The translations under genes and the position numbers were made by a program. From positions 1-23,811 of IMG/VR virus record IMGVR_UViG_3300003691_000053: a stretch of DNA of 23,811 nt; one strand, 5' to 3'. The notes below the pieces were generated by a model, which worked only from the letters and a program-made list of their open reading frames with translations, was not told the origin of the DNA and made no database searches. Below are positions 2,837-21,498 of this stretch, piece after piece. Positions within the stretch are counted from its first letter, which is position 1; the number at the start of each line of letters is the position of its first letter. Source of the stretch: a virus.

Positions 2837-3966
2837 TTTATATTCACATTATAGTATTTAATATTAGATTTATCTACATTCTCTAAAGCATTTTTTAACC
2901 ATTCTTCATCAGCAGTACCTTTAGAACATACAATTAATATTTTAGCTAAGTGTCCGGGTCTGTATCTAACTGCTCTACCAATTCTTTGGATAATATGTCT
3001 TTCTTTACTTTTGATTTGATGTACAAGAATAAAATCAACTAATGGTATATCAGCACCTTCATTTAATGAATCAACTGCTGAAATACGATTTATATTACCA
3101 TTAACAAATTCTGTCAAATCTGAATCATTTGTTTTTGAATGATAAGTTCTAGGTTCTAGTTCCTCAGCAGTTTTTATACTACCAGTGAATATTATACCTT
3201 TCTTTTCAGGTGGTATAATATTTTTTAATAAGTACTTTGAAACCTGTAGTTTACTTCGTAGGTTATAAACTATTCTCATTCTTTCAAGAACTGTAAATTT
3301 ATAACTTCCTTGTATTTCACCATCTGTAATAGATTGTAATTTATTTGTTAAATAATCATATTTACTTTTCTCTGTAGATAAAAATCTTTTAGTTTTAGTT
3401 CCAGATGTTATATATTTAACTTTATTATCTAAGTTAACCATATAAATATCTATCATAAAAGGTGCTATTACACCTTTTTTAACGGCATCATCCATAGGTA
3501 AAGTATAAACAATCTTAATTTTTAAATTGTCTAATATTTCTTTCTTATCTATTTCTGTAGGTGGTGTAGCAGTAAGAGCAATAATTTTATCATATATATT
3601 ATTATCAAAGAACATAGAATTATTTTCAGTAATGTTATGTGCTTCATCTAATATAACAAGATCATAAACATTACCTTCTAGTTTGTTGATTGATACATAA
3701 CAGTATCTATCAATTCTATCATAAATACCATCACTCCATTCTGCAAATTCTTTTCTCCAATTAGAATCTCTCAGTCTAACTGTTGGTACAACCAATAAAA
3801 TCTTAATTTCTCTTTGCATCTCTTCCTCTAATGCTTTTATATAGTCAATGGCAATTTTTGATTTACCACCTCCTGTTGCAATAGCAAGTAAACCACCATT
3901 GTTTACAGTAAGTTGATGTAGAGCTTCAGATTGAATTAGATTTTTTGCTTCATTTATATGTAACAT
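2833..3966 (-). CDS. Superfamily 2 DEAH-box helicase
   Basis: A 377-aa SF2 helicase or translocase with motifs in order: motif I ATGGGKS (residues 30-36), motif II DEAH (107-110), motif III-like LTATPP (131-136), and motif VI IIQRIGRAVRYRPG (about 328-341). The length is near the minimum for two RecA-like domains, similar to phage UvsW-type repair and recombination helicases. The substrate (branched DNA, RNA-DNA hybrid) cannot be told from sequence. It is the first gene after the promoter-like motif at 3990-4023, whose core lies about 50 bp upstream of the ATG. It probably leads an operon running left through the DnaB-like helicase and the ATPase. Confidence 0.85.
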   Translation of the reverse strand: MLHINEAKNLIQSEALHQLTVNNGGLLAIATGGGKSKIAIDYIKALEEEMQREIKILLVVPTVRLRDSNWRKEFAEWSDGIYDRIDRYCYVSINKLEGNVYDLVILDEAHNITENNSMFFDNNIYDKIIALTATPPTEIDKKEILDNLKIKIVYTLPMDDAVKKGVIAPFMIDIYMVNLDNKVKYITSGTKTKRFLSTEKSKYDYLTNKLQSITDGEIQGSYKFTVLERMRIVYNLRSKLQVSKYLLKNIIPPEKKGIIFTGSIKTAEELEPRTYHSKTNDSDLTEFVNGNINRISAVDSLNEGADIPLVDFILVHQIKSKERHIIQRIGRAVRYRPGHLAKILIVCSKGTADEEWLKNALENVDKSNIKYYNVNIK

Positions 3967-4033: not shown

Positions 4034-5149
4034 TTAATACTTAAATGATGGAGTATTGCAAGGTAATACAATCATATCAAGACCTATACTTAATACACTC
4101 ATATCAAAACTTGTTAGTTCATCATCCAATATAACCATCAACTTACCATCTGTTATTTGATCCATACAAGTAACAATCAACTCATAATCATTAGATTTAT
4201 TAATACGTTTATCACATGCTATTGCATATTCTAAAGCTCTAACATCTAAGAAATCTGTTCTAAATGATCCTTGTATTGATGTGTCCGGATTTGTTTTCTC
4301 AATATGATTTTGCAAATATTCATTAAATTCTTTAGAATAATTAATTTTACTTTCAATCATTGGACCATTACCATGTCTTGTTTGATAAGCTCTGATTACA
4401 TAGTGAGTTTTTACGTAATCTACATCTAATTGATCAATAATTTCAAATGCATTGAGAGAAGAGGTGTTTGATCTGGTCACATTTGGGAAAAACCCAATAT
4501 TTTTATCAAGTAATAATCCTTGCGCACCTTCAAAAACATAATGGTTAAAATCTAAATCTTTAATGGAATTTGGAATTTTACATACATTAAGCATCTGAGT
4601 TAGAGATTTATACCATAAAGCTTCATCTAACTTATCATGTGTAAATAATTCACCTAAAATATCATAATAATAATCTTTTACCTTACTATATTTTATATCA
4701 AATACCTTTCTAAATAAAGCATTCATAACAGTTAAAGAGTAATTATTTTCATTTCTCTCAATTGTTTTACCAAATCCAACACCAACAGTACCATGACCAC
4801 TAACATTATATTTATTTGATGCAATATCATATAATGTTGTCAACATTACTTCAGGATCTAAATATATAATAGGAACTATACCTTCAGCAAGTAATTTTGA
4901 ATACTCGTTCATGAATGATATTGGGTCTATAGTACAGAATTTACTAATATATGTAGCTGCACCTTTTAATGTTCCAGAACCAATAGAGCTAAATACATGT
5001 TGTATATTATTATATTCAACATTATGAGCTGCTTGATGTCCACCATTAAACCTTACAATTAAGGATTTTTTTGTTGTTAATGCATTTGTAATGTTTCCTT
5101 TTCCTTCATCACCAAATCCTGCACCCAATACTATATCTACTTTCTTCAT
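4034..5149 (-). CDS. purA: Adenylosuccinate synthetase-like protein (PurA/PurZ family)
   Basis: PurA joins aspartate to IMP using GTP, the first step to AMP. PurZ relatives use dGMP to make 2-aminoadenine DNA. The protein shows the family P-loop GDEGKG (residues 13-18) with catalytic Asp14, GGHQAAH (36-42) with the catalytic His, FEGAQGLLLD (206-215), FPNVTRSNT (221-229) and a guanine-binding TCMD (327-330, for TKLD). At 371 residues it is about 60 shorter than E. coli PurA (about 430). The usual aspartate loop (TTGRRRR) is replaced by GSFRTDFLD (294-302), so substrate choice may differ. Keeping Asp14 argues against a standard PurZ, in which that residue is changed. It leads a run of nucleotide genes (DUF1599, ThyX, MazG-like). 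Confidence 0.85.
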   Translation of the reverse strand: MKKVDIVLGAGFGDEGKGNITNALTTKKSLIVRFNGGHQAAHNVEYNNIQHVFSSIGSGTLKGAATYISKFCTIDPISFMNEYSKLLAEGIVPIIYLDPEVMLTTLYDIASNKYNVSGHGTVGVGFGKTIERNENNYSLTVMNALFRKVFDIKYSKVKDYYYDILGELFTHDKLDEALWYKSLTQMLNVCKIPNSIKDLDFNHYVFEGAQGLLLDKNIGFFPNVTRSNTSSLNAFEIIDQLDVDYVKTHYVIRAYQTRHGNGPMIESKINYSKEFNEYLQNHIEKTNPDTSIQGSFRTDFLDVRALEYAIACDKRINKSNDYELIVTCMDQITDGKLMVILDDELTSFDMSVLSIGLDMIVLPCNTPSFKY

Positions 5150-5699: not shown

Positions 5700-5893
5700 T
5701 ATTTCTGTTTTTTTACAATATCTTCATAAGAACAGTGATTACTAAAAGACATACATAAATGAGAAAGTGAATATTTTCTACCACTTTTAGCAGTAATTGA
5801 ATCACCTTCTAAATCTAATACATCATTAATAGTAAATTCATTATCATATAAATAATTCCATGCTTCATGAATTTTAGTTATTATTACTTTCAT
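5699..5893 (-). CDS. Small protein of unknown function (64 aa)
   Basis: No family was recognised. It begins MKVIITKIHEAWNYLYD and carries a short basic patch (KSGRKYS) in the middle, followed by two cysteines and a charged tail. It is soluble by composition. The start overlaps the ThyX stop and its stop overlaps the zinc-ribbon start, each by about one base, so it is almost certainly translated as part of the nucleotide-metabolism operon. Function unknown. Confidence 0.6.
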   Translation of the reverse strand: MKVIITKIHEAWNYLYDNEFTINDVLDLEGDSITAKSGRKYSLSHLCMSFSNHCSYEDIVKKQK

Positions 5894-6948
5894 TATTTTT
5901 CAAATTGATTATTATCAATCATATATCTATACTGAATAAAACCTCTGAAATTATTACACCAACCTGCTGATCCATCTTCTATATCAATTTTAAGATATCC
6001 TATTTCATTTTCTTCTTCTGATTCAAGTAATTCTATTGTACCTCTAGTGTAAGTTATATACTCTTCATTAGTCATAGCTCTAGCACAATGTTCAAATGGT
6101 GAAGCATGTTTATTTTTCAAAAGCATATCATGTAATTGAATATCTTTTTCATAATCAATTTCACCATCAAAAGTCATATATGAAAGTCTTGCAGCTCTAG
6201 CTGTAGCAATTTTAAGTATTACATCTTCATATTTACCTAATTCAGATAATCTACCTTTATTGAACTTATCACTAAATGGAATATGCCATTCACCAGCTTT
6301 TAATTCATTAGGAGTACTTTCATTTCTAGCATCCCACATAGATTCAGCCAATGCTTGAATATGAATCTCAGCACCAGATCCACTAAATTTAATCCAATCT
6401 AATTCTGTATTAGTAGAACATTCAGGATAATTTTTTGTAGCATCTTTCCTACTTTTATATGTTATAACTTCTTTTTTAGAATCATCCCTGATATGATACT
6501 TTGGACATCTTAAATCAAAGAAATTTTCCATTTCAGTAACAGTAACAAGATTGGTATACCACATAAATGGTTCTAATAACCTGTTTGTAATTTGTTTAGT
6601 AACATCACCAATATTTAACTGTTCTGCCCATAATATGGCTGCATCTCTAGCAGCTAACCATAAAGCTCTTCTATTTCCAACAGCTTCACCTTGTAAATAT
6701 TCAGTTCCCTGCATACCTTTATGATCTTTTTGCCAAGCAATTGGTACAAATGGATCATCTTTAATAGACTTCAACATTTTTTTATGAGGTATTGCTCTTG
6801 AAGATGCAGCATTTCTACTGAACATTCTATGAGTCATTACTTCAGCATGTATAAATCTTGGATAAGTAAGAATAAATGTTGTTATTCTTTCACCTCTAGG
6901 ATTAACACTATCTGCTATTATTTCAGCATTTACTTTTCTTTTATTCAT
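5893..6948 (-). CDS. thyX: Flavin-dependent thymidylate synthase (ThyX family)
   Basis: ThyX makes dTMP from dUMP using methylene-tetrahydrofolate, FAD and NADPH. The signature HRMFSRNAASSR (residues 40-51) corresponds to the ThyX motif RHRxxSxNxxSxR, and C-terminal segments SPFEHCA and NNFRGFIQYR match other family landmarks. At 351 residues it is about 100 longer than ordinary ThyX (220-250), with an insertion of roughly residues 110-230 between the two halves; long forms of this kind occur in phages. The ATG overlaps the upstream 103-aa ORF by 8 nt. The neighbours (PurA-like, DUF1599-like, MazG-like) point to a phage dNTP supply block. Family call is firm. Confidence 0.88.
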   Translation of the reverse strand: MNKRKVNAEIIADSVNPRGERITTFILTYPRFIHAEVMTHRMFSRNAASSRAIPHKKMLKSIKDDPFVPIAWQKDHKGMQGTEYLQGEAVGNRRALWLAARDAAILWAEQLNIGDVTKQITNRLLEPFMWYTNLVTVTEMENFFDLRCPKYHIRDDSKKEVITYKSRKDATKNYPECSTNTELDWIKFSGSGAEIHIQALAESMWDARNESTPNELKAGEWHIPFSDKFNKGRLSELGKYEDVILKIATARAARLSYMTFDGEIDYEKDIQLHDMLLKNKHASPFEHCARAMTNEEYITYTRGTIELLESEEENEIGYLKIDIEDGSAGWCNNFRGFIQYRYMIDNNQFEK

Positions 6949-12225: not shown

Positions 12226-12807
12226 TTACTTATATTTAAACACACTAGCTACAGATATATCTAGTAATTCAGCAATTTCTCTCATAGTTTTATTTCCTTC
12301 TGAGTATGAAATTTTTATGTTAGATATAAGTTCATCTGGTAATCTTAATCTACCATATTTTTTATAAAAACCTGATTCAATATTTCTATCCCTTAAACCA
12401 TTCCTTAATTCCGGGTATGTCTCCATATTCCTTATTTGAAGTTCAGAATGTGTTATCCAATATAAATTTTCAACTGAATTATCAGAATAATCACCATTTT
12501 TATGACTAACATATGCTTTATTTTCAGGATTAGGTATAAAAGCAATTGCTACTGCTTTGTGAACATAAATTGTACTTTTTTGTAGTCCATCATAGACAGG
12601 TGAGTAATAAGTAGTATCAGCAAACAAATGAGGTTGTTTATTATTTGTCCTCAATGTTGTAATTCTTCCTTGTACTTTCCTAACTCCTTTGCCAGCAGCT
12701 ACAAATCTTGTCAATGTTCTAATATGTCCTAAATTAGATACTTCATAAATTAAGTATGTTATACCATTATATACTAACTGTTTCCAAATTTCTTTTTTCA
12801 TAATCAA
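12226..12807 (-). CDS. HNH homing endonuclease with NUMOD4-like domain
   Basis: A free-standing homing endonuclease. The N-terminus (WKQLVYNGITYLIYEVSNLG and RTL, residues 8-32) matches the NUMOD4 DNA-binding motif. The HNH block follows (HKAVAIAFIPNPENK, then VSHKNGDYSDNSVENLYW, about 84-119). The C-terminus (about 155-193) has a helix-turn-helix repeat, MREIAELLDISVASVFK. Such enzymes nick or cut DNA at a site in a phage-lacking allele and copy themselves in. It is complete (193 aa) and placed between the 275-aa gene and the polymerase, separated by a terminator on its 5' side, a common intergenic site for these elements. No intron core was seen around it. Confidence 0.85.
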   Translation of the reverse strand: MIMKKEIWKQLVYNGITYLIYEVSNLGHIRTLTRFVAAGKGVRKVQGRITTLRTNNKQPHLFADTTYYSPVYDGLQKSTIYVHKAVAIAFIPNPENKAYVSHKNGDYSDNSVENLYWITHSELQIRNMETYPELRNGLRDRNIESGFYKKYGRLRLPDELISNIKISYSEGNKTMREIAELLDISVASVFKYK

Positions 12808-14171: not shown

Positions 14172-14832
14172 CATTATTTATATTTAAAAAACTCTATTCC
14201 TAACTCATTCCTATACTGTTTTTCTAATTCAGTATATTTTCCATTTCTTTTAGTAGCTGCTTGTATTTTTTTATATACAGCAATCCTATGTTTTTTCTTT
14301 GGATGAAATGATTTAAGTTTTAATGATACTTGATATCCTTGATTGTAAAGATATTTCAAATCATAACTTATTTTATGAGTTTCTTTTTTTGGAGGTTTCT
14401 TACTAATATGTCCTTTTATACCTAATTCTTTATAAATAAAGTATTGTATTCCAATTAATAATTCCATTTCTGTATTATGAAATGATACTTGTATAGTTTT
14501 ATTTTTACTACTACTTGCGGATGTAAAAGTTATTGACCCATCAGCATCAAAAAAACCTGATATATATTTCCAATTCATTTTACAAACATAGGTAATATCT
14601 ATACCACCTCCAAATTAAATATTCTATAATTTCTTATAGGATCGGACTATATCATCATCTGTTCAAGATGTTGCTTCCTGTAGGCTTGCCATAGCATCCT
14701 TAGTCTCTGAACCTGCTCACTTCTTCCAGTGAGATTGGCTGCTGATTGTCATAGGTTTCCACACCCTTAGAGTTCCAGCAATTCAAGCAATTTTTAATTA
14801 TATATCCCTATATAATGGGTCCGTATTCCTTA
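14172..14832 (-). ncRNA. Group I intron in the tmRNA T-loop
   Basis: All core helices can be drawn. P1: exon GGGTT (14837-14833) with guide GACCC (14821-14817), U.G at the splice site. P2: TTATATA GGGA TATATAA. P3: GCTTG (14788-14784) with CAAGC (14688-14684). P4: GCTG with CAGC (14779-14776, 14744-14741). R: GTTCAGAGACTA; S: GATATAGTCC; P7 GACTA/TAGTC. P8: CATCT/AGATG. P9: CTATAA GAAA TTATAG. The intron ends with G at 14172, directly before CGATTCCCC, and carries a LAGLIDADG ORF after P9. Group I introns at the tmRNA T-loop are known from some bacteria as I recall. Splicing should be self-catalysed. Confidence 0.93.
14174..14578 (-). CDS. LAGLIDADG homing endonuclease (intron-encoded)
   Basis: A 134-aa single-motif LAGLIDADG protein. 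YISGFFDADGSI (residues 5-16) is the signature helix with the catalytic Asp, and the rest (ISKKPPKKETHKISYDL, then the basic end AVYKKIQAATKR) fits the DNA-binding saddle. A single motif means it works as a homodimer on a near-palindromic site. Here the target is presumably the intronless tmRNA T-arm, which is itself palindromic-like. The ORF lies after P9 and its TAA ends 1 nt before the terminal G of the intron, so stop codon and 3' splice site are nearly fused. Some such proteins also help splicing. Confidence 0.88.
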   Translation of the reverse strand: MNWKYISGFFDADGSITFTSASSSKNKTIQVSFHNTEMELLIGIQYFIYKELGIKGHISKKPPKKETHKISYDLKYLYNQGYQVSLKLKSFHPKKKHRIAVYKKIQAATKRNGKYTELEKQYRNELGIEFFKYK

Positions 14833-16817: not shown

Positions 16818-17519
16818 TTATATAATATTAAGAATTTTTGCTTCTCTTAACCAATCAGGAAACTCATCCATCATCTTGTTATATAGATCATCATCAGTCA
16901 TTTTATTGATGTCAACAACTTTAAAAAAGTTAGCATTATCAACTCTACGACCAGACATGTTATCTAATTTTTCAAGAAAACCAAAGCTTGCTCTACCAAT
17001 TCCAATGAATTGAAAGAATATTCCATGATTAGCTGCATTTGTTATAGCTCTTTCTGCATGAAATGAATCACTACAGTCTCCATCAGCTAAAAACATTACA
17101 TAGGCTGGATCACCTTTTTCACTAGTATATTTTTCTTGGATCATTTCAATGATAGGAGTATAAGAAGTACCACCCATTCCATATTTATCCATAATTTCAC
17201 GTTTTACAACATTGTCAAAATGAGCAGGTGAAATTTCACCTAAATCATATGCTTTGTTATGAAATATAAATAAATCAATAGCTTGATTATCATCAAATGT
17301 AACACCAACAGGTAACAATCTTTCAACTACTTGTTGTACTGTACCATTTTGGTATAAACTATCCATAGAACCTGAATAATCAAGTACTAAAGCAACTCTG
17401 GCTTTTTGTTCACCAATACCTTTTGCAGTGGTGATTTTTTTAACGAGATCAACTCGTTGTTTAATAAGATCCACCTTATTAATAGGTGGAGCCTTATCTT
17501 TTTTACCAAATCCAAACAT
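16818..17519 (-). CDS. TerF-type VWA domain protein
   Basis: A 233-aa VWA protein of the type found at the C-terminus of TerF. The MIDAS is LVLDYSGSM (residues 45-52) and the segment SLYQNGTVQQVVERLLPVG (54-72) is close to the TerF pattern. GGTSYTP and MFLADGDCSD supply the further metal-site residues. The first 40 residues are lysine rich and lack a TerD domain, so this is the stand-alone form. In Ter systems such VWA proteins are thought to scaffold TerD-family proteins at the membrane. It overlaps the TerD stop as TAATG, so the two are coupled. Confidence 0.8.
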   Translation of the reverse strand: MFGFGKKDKAPPINKVDLIKQRVDLVKKITTAKGIGEQKARVALVLDYSGSMDSLYQNGTVQQVVERLLPVGVTFDDNQAIDLFIFHNKAYDLGEISPAHFDNVVKREIMDKYGMGGTSYTPIIEMIQEKYTSEKGDPAYVMFLADGDCSDSFHAERAITNAANHGIFFQFIGIGRASFGFLEKLDNMSGRRVDNANFFKVVDINKMTDDDLYNKMMDEFPDWLREAKILNII

Positions 17520-18103
17520 TAGATTCCGTATTCAGTATTTAATGCTTCTAAACCACCTGAAAATTCTACTTGATCAGCAGAAAATGCCCAAGTATCACCT
17601 TTTCTAAAGATAGTAGCAAACTTAACACCTGTTGCTGTAGAAGCATCAAAGTTTAAGTCAAAATGAATAGCTTCTTTCTCACCACCTGTCATATCAAGTA
17701 ATCTAACAAAGCTATTCTCAACCATACCAAAGTTCTGACCTCTACTGTCAGCTTCAAAGATATTAACTACAACAACCAATTTATCAATGTCAGCAGGTAC
17801 TTTGCTCAAATCAATTTTGATTTGTTCATCATCGCCATCACCATCACCAGTAAGATTATCACCAGTATGCTCAACAGAACCACAAGGAGATTTTAAGTTG
17901 TTAAAGAAAACAAAATTTGTCACAGGACTAACTCTACCATCTTTGTTTACCATATAAACAGAAGCATCTAAATCAAACTCAGCACCATTAGCACCAGTTT
18001 GTTTAGCATCCCAACCTAAACCAACCATGATAGCTGTCAAAGCAGTTACACCATCATCTTTGGTAAGTTTAACCTTACCACCTTTTACTAAATTTACACT
18101 CAT
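17519..18103 (-). CDS. terD: TerD-family tellurium/stress resistance protein
   Basis: A 194-aa TerD-family protein: GLGWDAK (residues 28-34), EFDLDASVYMVN (42-53), EHTGDNLTGDGDGDDEQI (78-95), the VVVNIFEADSRGQNFGMVENSFVRL stretch (from about residue 111) and a C-terminal RKGDTWAF. The acidic DGDGDDE block is the conserved Ca2+-binding part of the family. The length is typical. TerD proteins occur in tellurite, colicin and phage resistance operons; their biochemical role is unresolved. Here it heads a four-gene series with TerF-type VWA, TerB-like and Ca2+ exchanger. Whether it gives host resistance or protects infection is not known. Confidence 0.9.
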   Translation of the reverse strand: MSVNLVKGGKVKLTKDDGVTALTAIMVGLGWDAKQTGANGAEFDLDASVYMVNKDGRVSPVTNFVFFNNLKSPCGSVEHTGDNLTGDGDGDDEQIKIDLSKVPADIDKLVVVVNIFEADSRGQNFGMVENSFVRLLDMTGGEKEAIHFDLNFDASTATGVKFATIFRKGDTWAFSADQVEFSGGLEALNTEYGI

Positions 18104-18736: not shown

Positions 18737-18869
18737 TATAGAAAGGAATAGTTTACTATGTGTCATTATGTAAATACAGGAATTGAACCTGTTACCTTAA
18801 AATTAAGAGTTTCATGCTCTACCAACTGAGCTAAAATACGAAGTAACATAATAATTTACCATTTCTATA
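18737..18869 (-). ncRNA. tRNA scaffold cassette C1 (holds tRNA-Lys)
   Basis: Outer stem TATAGAAA (18869-18862) with TTTCTATA (18744-18737). The 5' core is TGGTAAA, TTATTATG, TTACTTCGTA (18861-18837). The 3' core is TAATGACA, CATAGTAA, ACTATTCC (18768-18745). TTATTATG pairs with CATAGTAA (8 bp, one G.U), and GG with CC. The same plan occurs in C2 and C3 with different stem sequence and the same single-stranded blocks, so the pairings are supported by covariation. It looks like an RNA scaffold with a tRNA body inserted in its loop. Confidence 0.75.
18769..18840 (-). tRNA. tRNA-Lys (CUU) body, weak acceptor
   Basis: D-arm GCTC AGTTGGTA GAGC, anticodon arm TGAAA CTCTTAA TTTTA (anticodon CUU), T-arm ACAGG TTCAATT CCTGT are all canonical. 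The acceptor is poor: CGTATTT against ATTTACA pairs at only four of seven positions, because the 5' strand is the conserved scaffold sequence TTCGTATTT shared with the Gln copy. Upstream GTAAAT could pair with ATTTAC instead, leaving a 20-nt insert before position 8. CCA is not encoded. It may be a functional tRNA after unusual processing, or a decoy. Confidence 0.6.
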
Positions 18870-18870
18870 G

Positions 18871-18945
18871 AGATTGATATAGGATTTGAACCTATGACCT
18901 TCTGATTAACAGTCAGATGCTCTAGCCAAGCTGAGCTAATCAATC
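18871..18945 (-). tRNA. tRNA-Asn (GUU)
   Basis: Acceptor GATTGAT/ATCAATC (7 bp), D-arm GCTC AGCTTGGCTA GAGC, anticodon arm TCTGA CTGTTAA TCAGA (anticodon GUU), variable AGGTC, T-arm ATAGG TTCAAAT CCTAT. A normal tRNA lying between cassettes C2 and C1, with no scaffold around it. CCA is not encoded and the discriminator base appears to be U, unusual for Asn. Confidence 0.9.
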
Positions 18946-18953
18946 TTAAAATA

Positions 18954-19086
18954 AACAAGAGGAATACTTATAAATGTGTCATTAATGTATGTGTTGGAGT
19001 TGAACCAACGACCTCAAAAACCAAAATTTTGCGTTCTAACCATCTGAACTAAAATACGAAGTAACATTTACATTTACCATCTTGTT
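18954..19086 (-). ncRNA. tRNA scaffold cassette C2 (holds tRNA-Gln)
   Basis: Outer stem AACAAGA (19086-19080) with TCTTGTT (18960-18954). The 5' core is TGGTAAA, TGTAAATG, TTACTTCGTA (19079-19055). The 3' core is TAATGACA, CATTTATA, AGTATTCC (18984-18961). TGTAAATG pairs with CATTTATA (8 bp, one G.U). The core blocks equal those of C1 while both stems differ in sequence yet still pair. The insert is a tRNA body in normal order. Confidence 0.75.
18986..19058 (-). tRNA. tRNA-Gln (UUG) body, weak acceptor
   Basis: D-arm GTTC AGATGGTTA GAAC, anticodon arm CAAAA TTTTGGT TTTTG (anticodon UUG), variable AGGTC, T-arm GTTGG TTCAACT CCAAC. The acceptor CGTATTT/ACATACA pairs at five of seven positions; the 5' strand is identical to that of the Lys copy because it is part of the scaffold. 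CCA is not encoded. The body is sound, so the unusual ends are likely to matter. Confidence 0.62.
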
Positions 19087-19092
19087 GTGTTG

Positions 19093-19131
19093 TTCCTCTG
19101 TACTGATATACCAGATGTAGCTCCAGAGAAA
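19093..19131 (-). repeat. Hairpin between cassettes C3 and C2
   Basis: TTTCTCTG (19131-19124) pairs with CAGAGGAA (19100-19093), 8 pairs with one G.U. The loop holds GAGCTACATCTGGTATATCAGTA, within which CTG/CAG can pair. It may be a spacer or processing site in the cluster transcript. No T-run follows, so it is not a terminator. Confidence 0.4.
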
Positions 19132-19159
19132 AAGTTTTATCTACTTTGTTTATATTTTT

Positions 19160-19309
19160 AAAAAATTAAGGAATACTAATAAAAGTGTATTATCTAAAAA
19201 TTTGAGTTTAAATCAAACGTGTTAACCAATTACACCATACTCTTTTGCAAGAATAATAGGACTCGAACCTATACTACGAAGTAACTTTTATTTTTACCAT
19301 TAATTTTTT
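19160..19309 (-). ncRNA. tRNA scaffold cassette C3 (holds permuted tRNA)
   Basis: Outer stem AAAAAATTAA (19309-19300) with TTAATTTTTT (19169-19160), 10 bp. The 5' core is TGGTAAA, AATAAAAG, TTACTTCGTA (19299-19275). The 3' core is TAATACA, CTTTTATT, AGTATTCC (19192-19170). AATAAAAG pairs perfectly with CTTTTATT. The single-stranded blocks match C1 and C2 while both stems covary. Here the insert is a tRNA in permuted order, so the scaffold joins the tRNA at the variable loop rather than at the acceptor. Confidence 0.75.
19201..19272 (-). tRNA. Circularly permuted tRNA (anticodon UAA)
   Basis: In transcript order: T-arm ATAGG TTCGAGT CCTAT (19272-19256), acceptor 3' strand TATTCTT (19255-19249), loop GCAA, acceptor 5' strand AAGAGTA (19244-19238), D-arm GTGT AATTGGTTA ACAC, anticodon arm TTTGA TTTAAAC TCAAA (to 19201). 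The acceptor pairs at 7 of 7 positions with one G.U. Every tRNA arm is present, but the 3' half comes first, as in the permuted tRNA genes of some algae and archaea. The break is in the variable loop. Anticodon UAA would read UUA (Leu). The G after the acceptor and the same GCAAAA as in tRNA-Asp are odd for Leu. Use as a tRNA would need cutting and ligation. Confidence 0.7.
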
Positions 19310-19391: not shown

Positions 19392-19443
19392 TTCAGATGT
19401 TATCTCCATTATTACATCTTACCAGATCTTAAAGAACTTTTTG

Positions 19444-19517
19444 CAGTGCATACGGGATTTGAACCCGTAATCTCTTCCGTGACAGGAAAGCAACATACGC
19501 TAATATGATGATGCACT
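19444..19517 (-). tRNA. tRNA-Asp (GUC)
   Basis: Acceptor AGTGCAT/ATGCACT (7 bp), D-stem CATA/TATG, anticodon arm CTTTC CTGTCAC GGAAG (anticodon GUC, one G.U), T-arm ACGGG TTCAAAT CCCGT, discriminator G as expected for Asp. It is the first tRNA of the cluster transcript. CCA is not encoded; GCAAAA follows. Confidence 0.85.
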
Positions 19518-20557: not shown

Positions 20558-21391
20558 TTAATCTTTTGTAAGGTATCTTTCTTTAACATATGCATCAATA
20601 ACTTCAATAGCTGATTCTTTTTTGTTAAATTTAGCAATAAATAAACCTGTATGTTGAAATATTAAGTCATTATGTACTATTACAGGTAATGGATGAATAT
20701 TAGATTCATATGATGTTAGTACCCATGCATCTTTTTCATCTTGGAAAATAGCAAATGGGTATTCTTTTCTACTTTTCCAAATCCTAGACCAACCACTTAA
20801 TAATATTGTTTTATGATTTACAATAATAAGATTTTCATAGATAGATAACTCATTAATTAATTCCATACCATATACTATTTCATTTGCAATAATATAAGTA
20901 CTAAATATCATTGCATGATAGAATTGTTCATCTTGTGTTGTTTTAGCACCTTTAGACCTATTATAATTGTTAAAACCATTAATGATTGTTGGTAAATTTC
21001 TATGAACACCTTGTTTATTGTATTCATCCCAATCATTATGAGTATTATTTACATTTCTATCCCAATTAGAAATACCTCTCATAAATGCTATTAAACTTCC
21101 ATAAATTTCTTTAGTAATAACATTTGTAGTCATCAGATATTCAAGTATTAACATGTTTGATGAACTAAGATCTTTATCCTGATGATGATCAAAGTTTTTA
21201 ACATGTGGTTTAAATTCACCACCAACATCAATAACAAATATTGCTGGATTAGCTAAAGCAGCTTTTATTTTTTCTTCATCTCTTGTTCTAATAACTTCAA
21301 CATTATAGTCAAGAAAATGCATCAATAATGCTATGGCAAATATTTCATCTGCATGAAATGTACCATCATGTGTGTATACTTTTGTTTTCAT
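20558..21391 (-). CDS. MYG1-family metal-dependent hydrolase
   Basis: A 277-aa protein of the MYG1 (UPF0160) family, related to DHH-type phosphoesterases. THDGTFHADE (residues 7-16) and a later FVIDVGGEF followed by NFDHHQDK are the metal-binding motifs of the family. MYG1 in eukaryotes is a 3'-5' RNA exonuclease; the substrate of phage forms is unknown. The frame is open upstream to 21463, but that part would read through the structured leader and starts with low-complexity sequence. ATG at 21391 places the HDGTFHADE motif at the usual distance from the start. A pseudoknot-like element lies 30 nt upstream, and two hairpins follow the stop. Confidence 0.85.
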   Translation of the reverse strand: MKTKVYTHDGTFHADEIFAIALLMHFLDYNVEVIRTRDEEKIKAALANPAIFVIDVGGEFKPHVKNFDHHQDKDLSSSNMLILEYLMTTNVITKEIYGSLIAFMRGISNWDRNVNNTHNDWDEYNKQGVHRNLPTIINGFNNYNRSKGAKTTQDEQFYHAMIFSTYIIANEIVYGMELINELSIYENLIIVNHKTILLSGWSRIWKSRKEYPFAIFQDEKDAWVLTSYESNIHPLPVIVHNDLIFQHTGLFIAKFNKKESAIEVIDAYVKERYLTKD

Positions 21392-21420
21392 TATTATAAT
21401 TTTTGTTGTAATTGAATTTA

Positions 21421-21498
21421 AAAAATAATCTGGTAGGTTGTCTATTATTACATGACCTGACAACCAAGGTCTTCATTCATTTTTTTAATACCAGATTA
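21421..21498 (-). promoter_or_regulatory. Leader with nested stem and H-type pseudoknot
   Basis: TAATCTGGTA/TACCAGATTA (10 bp) is followed by six Ts, like a terminator. Inside it, GACCT (21472-21468) pairs with AGGTC (21459-21455), and GGTTGTC in that loop (21466-21460) pairs with GACAACC (21443-21437), a classical H-type pseudoknot. It lies 30 nt before the MYG1-family ATG. It could be the terminator of the AAA+ gene or a regulated leader. No known riboswitch class was recognised. The stretch 21499-21599 holds no gene. Confidence 0.5.

Follow-up and report, generated by a model that had tools for sequence, protein, structure and literature searches.

A putative small intron-like RNA in phages that would circularise permuted precursor tRNAs

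Background

The tRNA array of a linear 23.8-kb virus record, called the window below since the whole of it was analysed, carries on its minus strand, between positions 18737 and 19309, three copies (C1, C2 and C3) of an RNA scaffold built around tRNA-like bodies, and it raises the question of what such a scaffold does to the tRNA that it encloses. A first-pass annotation regarded the copies as an unfamiliar covarying fold with a tRNA in each loop, and offered a special processing signal, tRNA circularisation or decoys against anticodon nucleases as possible roles. Permuted tRNA genes, in which the 3' half precedes the 5' half, have been reviewed only in archaea and algae, with none in bacteria (PMC4033280, PMC3978253), and bacterial tRNA genes have been called uniform apart from their group I and group II introns (PMC4033280). 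The available part of a survey of crAss-like phages describes suppressor tRNAs and group I introns and contains no permuted tRNAs (PMC7886860). A search of the open-access literature, which takes in almost no preprints, found no permuted phage tRNA, and an unseen report is possible.

Results and discussion

The scaffold in the window

All three copies share the layout P1 - UGGUAAA - P2 - UUACUUC/GUA - insert - P2' - AnUAUUCC - P1' (Table 1). As had been claimed, the common blocks and stems can be located in each copy on the minus strand, the stems diverge in sequence and yet always pair (outer stems of 8, 7 and 10 bp, inner stems of 8 bp in each copy), and the neighbouring tRNA-Asn (18870-18945) and tRNA-Asp (19443-19517) are without a scaffold. 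The pattern TGGTAAA-N5..12-GTTACTTCGTA has three matches in the window and none in 100 dinucleotide shuffles. The spacer between C2 and C3 contains a CTCTG...CAGAG inverted repeat (19096-19128).

What did not stand was the notion of a normal tRNA in every loop. Judged by its sequence, the insert of C3 is a circularly permuted tRNA, with T-arm and 3' acceptor strand placed before the 5' acceptor strand, D-arm and anticodon arm (UAA), and this decisive feature had been missed. The T-arm (AUAGG-UUCGAGU-CCUAU) and the 3' acceptor UAUUCUU-G are followed, after a spacer of 3 nt, by the 5' acceptor AAGAGUA; the two acceptor strands pair over 7 bp, and the anticodon arm reads UUUGA-UUUAAAC-UCAAA. Because the halves stand in permuted order, ARAGORN does not call C3 and the Rfam tRNA model yields two separate truncated matches only, one of them below the cut-off; one spans 19182-19244. 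ARAGORN finds a tRNA-Leu(taa) there only after the ends of the insert have been joined.

Table 1. Scaffold copies, their inserts and related elements (positions are those of the window unless a locus or record is named)
Feature	Location	Strand	Details
Scaffold C1	18737..18869	-	P1 18862-18869/18737-18744; P2 18847-18854/18753-18760
C1 blocks		-	UGGUAAA 18855-18861; UUACUUC 18840-18846; UAUUCC 18745-18750
C1 insert, tRNA-Lys(CUU), putative 1|2 split	18765..18839	-	position 1 = U18765; putative cuts 18840/18839, 18765/18764
Scaffold C2	18954..19086	-	P1 19080-19086/18954-18960; P2 19065-19072/18969-18976
C2 blocks		-	UGGUAAA 19073-19079; UUACUUC 19058-19064; UAUUCC 18961-18966
C2 insert, tRNA-Gln(UUG), putative 1|2 split	18981..19057	-	position 1 = U18981; putative cuts 19058/19057, 18981/18980
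Scaffold C3	19160..19309	-	P1 19300-19309/19160-19169; P2 19285-19292/19178-19185
C3 blocks		-	UGGUAAA 19293-19299; UUACUUC 19278-19284; UAUUCC 19170-19175
C3 insert, first part (tRNA 3' half, placed upstream)	19249..19277	-	exon start G19277; T-arm 19256-19272; 3' acceptor strand UAUUCUU 19249-19255
C3 insert, second part	19201..19244	-	5' acceptor AAGAGUA 19238-19244; D-arm 19219-19235; anticodon arm 19201-19217
C3 anticodon UAA	19208-19210	-	5' half ends at or shortly after 19201
(a) Permuted tRNA halves	window, G001, G002, G003, G005, G006, G009, G010		window C3; Phe-like, Tyr (G001); Asn(GUU), Cys(GCA) (G002); Lys(UUU) (G003); Ile(UAU) (G005, G006); Thr(UGU), Leu-like (G009); Leu-like (G010)
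(b) tRNAs split within the 5' acceptor strand	G001, G010		Val (G001); Thr (G010)
(c) Whole-looking tRNAs			Lys, Gln, Gly, Glu-like, one with anticodon UCA
(d) Scaffolds with 15-35-nt inserts, no tRNA	L395 4738, 6018; L403 2531, 4825; L397 2719, 3498; L398 3132; L423 1852-1923		
(d) continued	L396 3628; L402 9480, 9567	-	
Second-in-array scaffolds with different bodies	L108 (499); L395 (5867); L403 (4659)		
Second-in-array scaffolds, continued	L396 (3485); L402 (9318)	-	
Ordinary-order elements	L401 16108-16159; L398 3017-3068; L399 3618-3669; L395 1911-1961		43.2 bits; 39.9 bits, all pairs standard; 36.9 bits; 23.2 bits
Ordinary-order elements, continued	L402 8921-8973	-	32.4 bits

Recurrence in other phages

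The scaffold extends beyond this one phage: about 40 copies occur in ten other phage-type records and two more in a named phage. A relaxed two-arm pattern gave 93 stretches, of which stem scoring and the presence of a tRNA left one, in a 434-kb phage (G001); five copies, among them two that are clearly permuted, lie in the tRNA array of this phage. Consensus-based scans with stem scoring then yielded copies in nine further records: G002-G009, which belong to the viral collection, and the 104.6-kb MAG contig G010, labelled 'uncultured bacterium'; among the matches in genome_contigs, one of 18 was supported (MAG contig CALMEO010000055.1). The named carrier, found with a short query, is the crAss-like phage cr111_1 (MT774387.1, Crassvirales, Steigviridae), in which one copy surrounds an annotated tRNA-Gln and the other has a small insert. 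The hosts of Crassvirales are given as Bacteroidetes in the available text of PMC10136315. The first 100 kb of crAss001 gave no copy with the detector used here. The copies are not independent, because several of the carrier records are closely related (G001, G007 and G008, and likewise G004, G005 and G006); most records are fragments.

Strict patterns that included GUA or AAUGACAC returned chance matches in coding sequence or nothing, because these letters are particular to the window phage, and BLAST matches in Flavobacterium phage immuto and Vibrio phage D497 proved to be upstream sequence and an ordinary tRNA. A variant block, GUACUUCG, was seen in scaffold-like stretches at L174 7120, L195 7562, L157 8828 (minus), L402 1152-1209 (minus) and L395 7942-7997; those of L174, L195 and L157 also have a second stem and a 3' block, with inserts of about 90 nt, and no tRNA was called on the joined inserts of L174 and L195.

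The RNA fold

For the alignment of 37 distinct copies, pairing in P1 and P2 had served as a selection criterion. Conserved across phages is UUAC(U/A)UCG, together with U(G/A)GUnA and nUUC(C/U); invariant in the 37 copies are U11, G13, U14 and A16 of the 5' block, the U, C, UC and G of the UUACUUCG block and the UUC of the 3' block. The first-pass annotation had described its blocks correctly for the window, and one of them, UAAUGACAC, turned out to be particular to the window phage and is not conserved across phages. In the two-helix structure 75% of cells pair, compared with 57% in shuffles, and 143 cells are changed on both sides, compared with 55.6 in shuffles (0 of 500 reach 143), while the covariation score is 0.511 as against 0.14-0.21 with the partners slid, all of these P1/P2 numbers being inflated because the same pairing was used to select the copies. 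Independent of that selection, which let column 12 be G or A and column 54 be C or U in any combination, is the pair formed by these two columns, intact in 37/37 copies (GC in 26, AU in 11, broken in none). RNAalifold recovers the same two-helix fold unaided. Both stems thus covary strongly in the 37 aligned copies, which bears out the covarying fold first proposed from three. A complementarity between GUAA and UUAC across P2 was considered and dropped because it shows no covariation.

The element had also been taken to belong to no familiar class, and indeed no Rfam family matches it: covariance models of families other than tRNA gave no match to it in the window, L041 or the arrays, and group I and group II introns had no match over the gathering score in the window, L041 or any array.

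Inserts: permuted, split and absent tRNAs

Most inserts across the phages are permuted or split tRNAs, and some scaffolds enclose 15-35 nt and no tRNA, so that the idea of an intact tRNA simply sitting in the loop does not hold. Permuted genes occur in window C3 and in G001-G003 and G005-G010, and the permuted order of T-arm, acceptor, D-arm and anticodon arm is found in ten or more copies. In several copies CCA is encoded next to the acceptor, at inner 3' ends, which makes sense only if that end is matured. Apparently orthologous scaffolds, with the same P1 and the same array position, carry Phe-like, Asn, Lys or Leu-like bodies, which suggests that tRNA bodies have been swapped inside a fixed scaffold. 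One tRNA-less insert type, GAAAUCUAUU...AAUUGAAACUUCAAAA, is common to G002, G003 and G010. Scaffold tRNAs with anticodons UCA (G009, L402 minus ~3059-3133) and UUA (G007, L400 minus ~2656) are possible stop-codon suppressors.

The whole-looking tRNAs are a special case. ARAGORN calls a tRNA-Lys(CUU) in C1, with C18840 as its position 1, and a tRNA-Gln(UUG) in C2, and in both, as in the other whole-looking scaffold tRNAs that start with C, position 1 as previously read is the C of the conserved UUACUUC block and cannot pair with position 72. The 1-72 pair is missing in 10 of 16 whole-looking scaffold tRNAs, compared with 5 of 146 ordinary tRNAs in the same records. Should the insert start with the G that follows UUACUUC, the 3' side has to supply position 1. 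Most copies do have a base complementary to position 72 on that side, which is weak evidence because the choice of base is free, and two copies of this type (the UCA tRNA of G009 and the Gln of cr111_1) have no base able to pair with position 72. For the seemingly whole tRNAs of C1 and C2 the best interpretation is a split between positions 1 and 2; C1 has a weak acceptor stem, with two U-U mismatches.

Joining the insert ends

With the cut on the P2' side left free, ARAGORN found a junction-spanning tRNA in all 13 permuted or split copies after joining, in 1/13 when unjoined and in 1/1300 shuffled inserts; the anticodons on the joined inserts include taa (window C3), gtt, gca, ttt, tat, gta, cac and tgt. 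A first ARAGORN scan over cut positions did not discriminate the exact cut, and stem restoration was therefore used to place it. In copies split in the anticodon stem, fixing the cut in the UUAC(U/A)UCG block leaves nothing free to choose, and placing it at UUAC(U/A)UC^G restores 18.5 of 20 anticodon-stem pairs (5/5 each in Asn, Lys and the Leu-like copy of G009, 3.5 in Thr), with lower values at every other position. The predicted junctions are GAGCACG|GCUCUGUUAA for Asn of G002, GAGCACU|GCUCUUUUAA for Lys of G003 and UCAAA or UCAAAU|GUAGUAUAGG for window C3. Several observations tell against so simple a picture: a cut 1-3 nt further upstream suits Val (G001) and both Thr copies better, the P2'-side cut lies at no fixed distance from P2', and the Phe-like copy and the Leu-like copy of G010 have enlarged anticodon loops after joining.

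Copies in ordinary order

When the arms were arranged in intron order, a covariance model built from them (R1) revealed five elements outside its training set (Table 1), each inside the D-loop of a tRNA-like gene with a 7-bp acceptor stem and a T-arm. The downstream exon starts with GG in four of the five, as expected for G18 G19. Predicted removal of the element restores the D-stem in L398 and L399; in the other three (L401, L402 and L395) restoration is not clear, which counts against an intron. The acceptor stems and T-arms of these last three genes are perfect, and the L402 gene, with anticodon UGA and a short variable loop, is perhaps a D-armless tRNA. Most other R1 matches combined the 3' arm of a scaffold with the 5' arm of the following one, and these were discarded because P2 was unpaired. 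The element thus also lies between two parts of one gene in ordinary order, as an intron does, its removal being a prediction, and the permuted form would therefore be an intron turned inside out.

A model for the scaffold and its alternatives

The reading that we prefer, with a probability of roughly 0.7, takes the scaffold for a small intron-like RNA of a new kind, which in phages turns permuted pre-tRNAs into circles. P1 and P2 would bring both ends of the insert together; cutting would take place at UUAC(U/A)UC^G on the 5' side and, on the 3' side, about 0-15 nt before P2'; the ends would be joined into a circular pre-tRNA with the split tRNA stem restored; and RNase P and 3' processing would open the circle at the linker, in the way suggested for the permuted tRNAs of algae (PMC3978253). 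Further points against this reading are the scaffolds whose 15-35-nt inserts contain no tRNA, the two copies in which position 72 finds no partner and the weak acceptor stem of C1. Among the roles offered at the outset the evidence favours tRNA circularisation, and no finding favours the anticodon-nuclease decoy. If the reading is true, these would be the first permuted tRNA genes on the bacterial side, with a different RNA motif. Standard tRNA finders miss permuted genes, and phage tRNA inventories, with the arguments built on them, may therefore be incomplete.

As to the chemistry, we lean slightly towards self-splicing over proteins, because conserved unpaired blocks flank P2 and some lie far from the cut sites. 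In a more tentative form, which we hold possible at distinctly less than even odds, the element would be a new class of very small self-splicing intron, with about 60-75 nt between the splice sites and perhaps the smallest natural splicing ribozyme, which phages would use as an ordinary tRNA intron and also, turned inside out, to make circles from permuted tRNA genes. Self-splicing, if true, would mean a new ribozyme class and a compact natural route to circular RNA. Alternatively, a phage or host endonuclease may recognise and cut the P1-P2 scaffold and an RNA ligase seal the products, the scaffold being a substrate and not a ribozyme, a proposal that concerns the chemistry only and not the permuted-tRNA reading, and whose chance we put just short of even. 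ATP-dependent RNA ligases are encoded in G001, G002, G004 and G008 (the two that were checked belong to the DRB0094 type, one scoring over the curated cut-off and the other under it), G001 and G008 have in addition a T4 Rnl1-type ligase, and the variable P2'-side cuts would suit an enzyme guided by the tRNA fold. However, large phages commonly encode ligases, and five of the nine records searched, mostly fragments, yielded none; the tRNA-splicing endonuclease PF01974 and RtcB were found in no record; and conserved unpaired blocks so far from the cuts would be unusual for a mere substrate. The search for PF01974 (EndA family) covered the phage side, nine records that are mostly fragments, and the family was absent from these and present in four archaeal controls.

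Unlikely, though as an account of origin compatible with the intron-like reading, is a small selfish element: it would insert into tRNA genes and leave permuted copies through tandem duplication and loss, and its splicing would do no more than keep it harmless. Its presence at many tRNA positions (0|1, 1|2, D-loop, anticodon stem, variable loop), the empty scaffolds and the different bodies in orthologous scaffolds would fit such an origin; the element has, however, no open reading frame or mobility feature, and array positions are kept between phages. That the scaffold is never spliced, the inserts being tRNA-like decoys for anticodon nucleases or the scaffold a processing or stability signal, with permutation tolerated as charging is unneeded, appears more improbable still: tRNA-less scaffolds and bodies with odd anticodon loops exist, but joining exactly restores the stems that permutation breaks, many of the anticodon loops have the canonical form, inner 3' ends carry an encoded CCA and there are copies in ordinary order. 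Descent by reduction from group I or group II introns would be in line with the homing endonuclease genes of the window, which are of intron-associated types, but is very improbable given an element of only about 60-75 nt between the putative cut sites and the absence of any match over the gathering score in window or arrays.

Comparison with known systems

The permuted tRNA genes of Cyanidioschyzon merolae, prasinophyte algae, the Bigelowiella natans nucleomorph and Thermofilum pendens likewise have the 3' half upstream of the 5' half (PMC3978253, PMC3218864, PMC4033280). Shared with them are a short intervening sequence at the acceptor and pairable termini; their likely circular intermediate, which RNase P and 3' processing would open, probably has a counterpart in the phages. 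The algal and archaeal termini, however, form a bulge-helix-bulge that the tRNA-splicing endonuclease cuts at 20/21, 37/38, 50/51 or 59/60, whereas the phage copies have the P1-P2 scaffold with its conserved blocks and putative joints at about 0/1 and 1/2 and in the anticodon stem and variable loop, and no EndA was found in the nine records searched. Inspection of the 37 aligned copies found no bulge-helix-bulge (3-nt bulge, 4-bp helix, 3-nt bulge); the putative UUAC(U/A)UC^G cut lies 7 nt from P2 and the other putative cut 0-15 nt from P2'.

Group I and group II introns of bacteria and phages also interrupt tRNA genes, but they measure hundreds of nucleotides as against about 60-75 here, insert at other sites and have other conserved blocks, and the present element has no Rfam match. 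Natural permuted group II introns exist, and permuted introns can make RNA circles. The self-cleaving ribozymes of Rfam (hammerhead, twister, pistol, hatchet and others) are likewise small, with two stems flanking conserved internal loops, and in the window region none gave a match at the gathering score or at the family level at E up to 10. The permuted two-piece tmRNA (RF04321), whose pieces are not known to be rejoined, is another permuted tRNA-like RNA, but lacks the P1-P2 scaffold. Near the tRNA arrays a tmRNA of the permuted type was seen in G009 (L402 7570-7728 minus) and of the standard type in G005 and G006 (L398 195-578; L399 2049-2432).

Genomic context of the window

Near relatives of the window were found neither in the phage collection nor by a protein search for close relatives, and megablast against named phages gave no match of use. 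Its DNA polymerase shares about 38% identity with the enzymes of Flavobacterium phages, a level similar to that with the polymerases of other phages. Upstream of the tRNA array, at 16818-18103, are adjacent genes for a TerF-like vWA protein and a TerD protein, and elsewhere the window encodes a viral adenylosuccinate synthetase (4034-5149), a ThyX-like protein (5893-6948), a MYG1-family protein (20558-21463) and two homing endonucleases, HNH_3/NUMOD4 at 12226-12807 and LAGLIDADG at 14174-14578.
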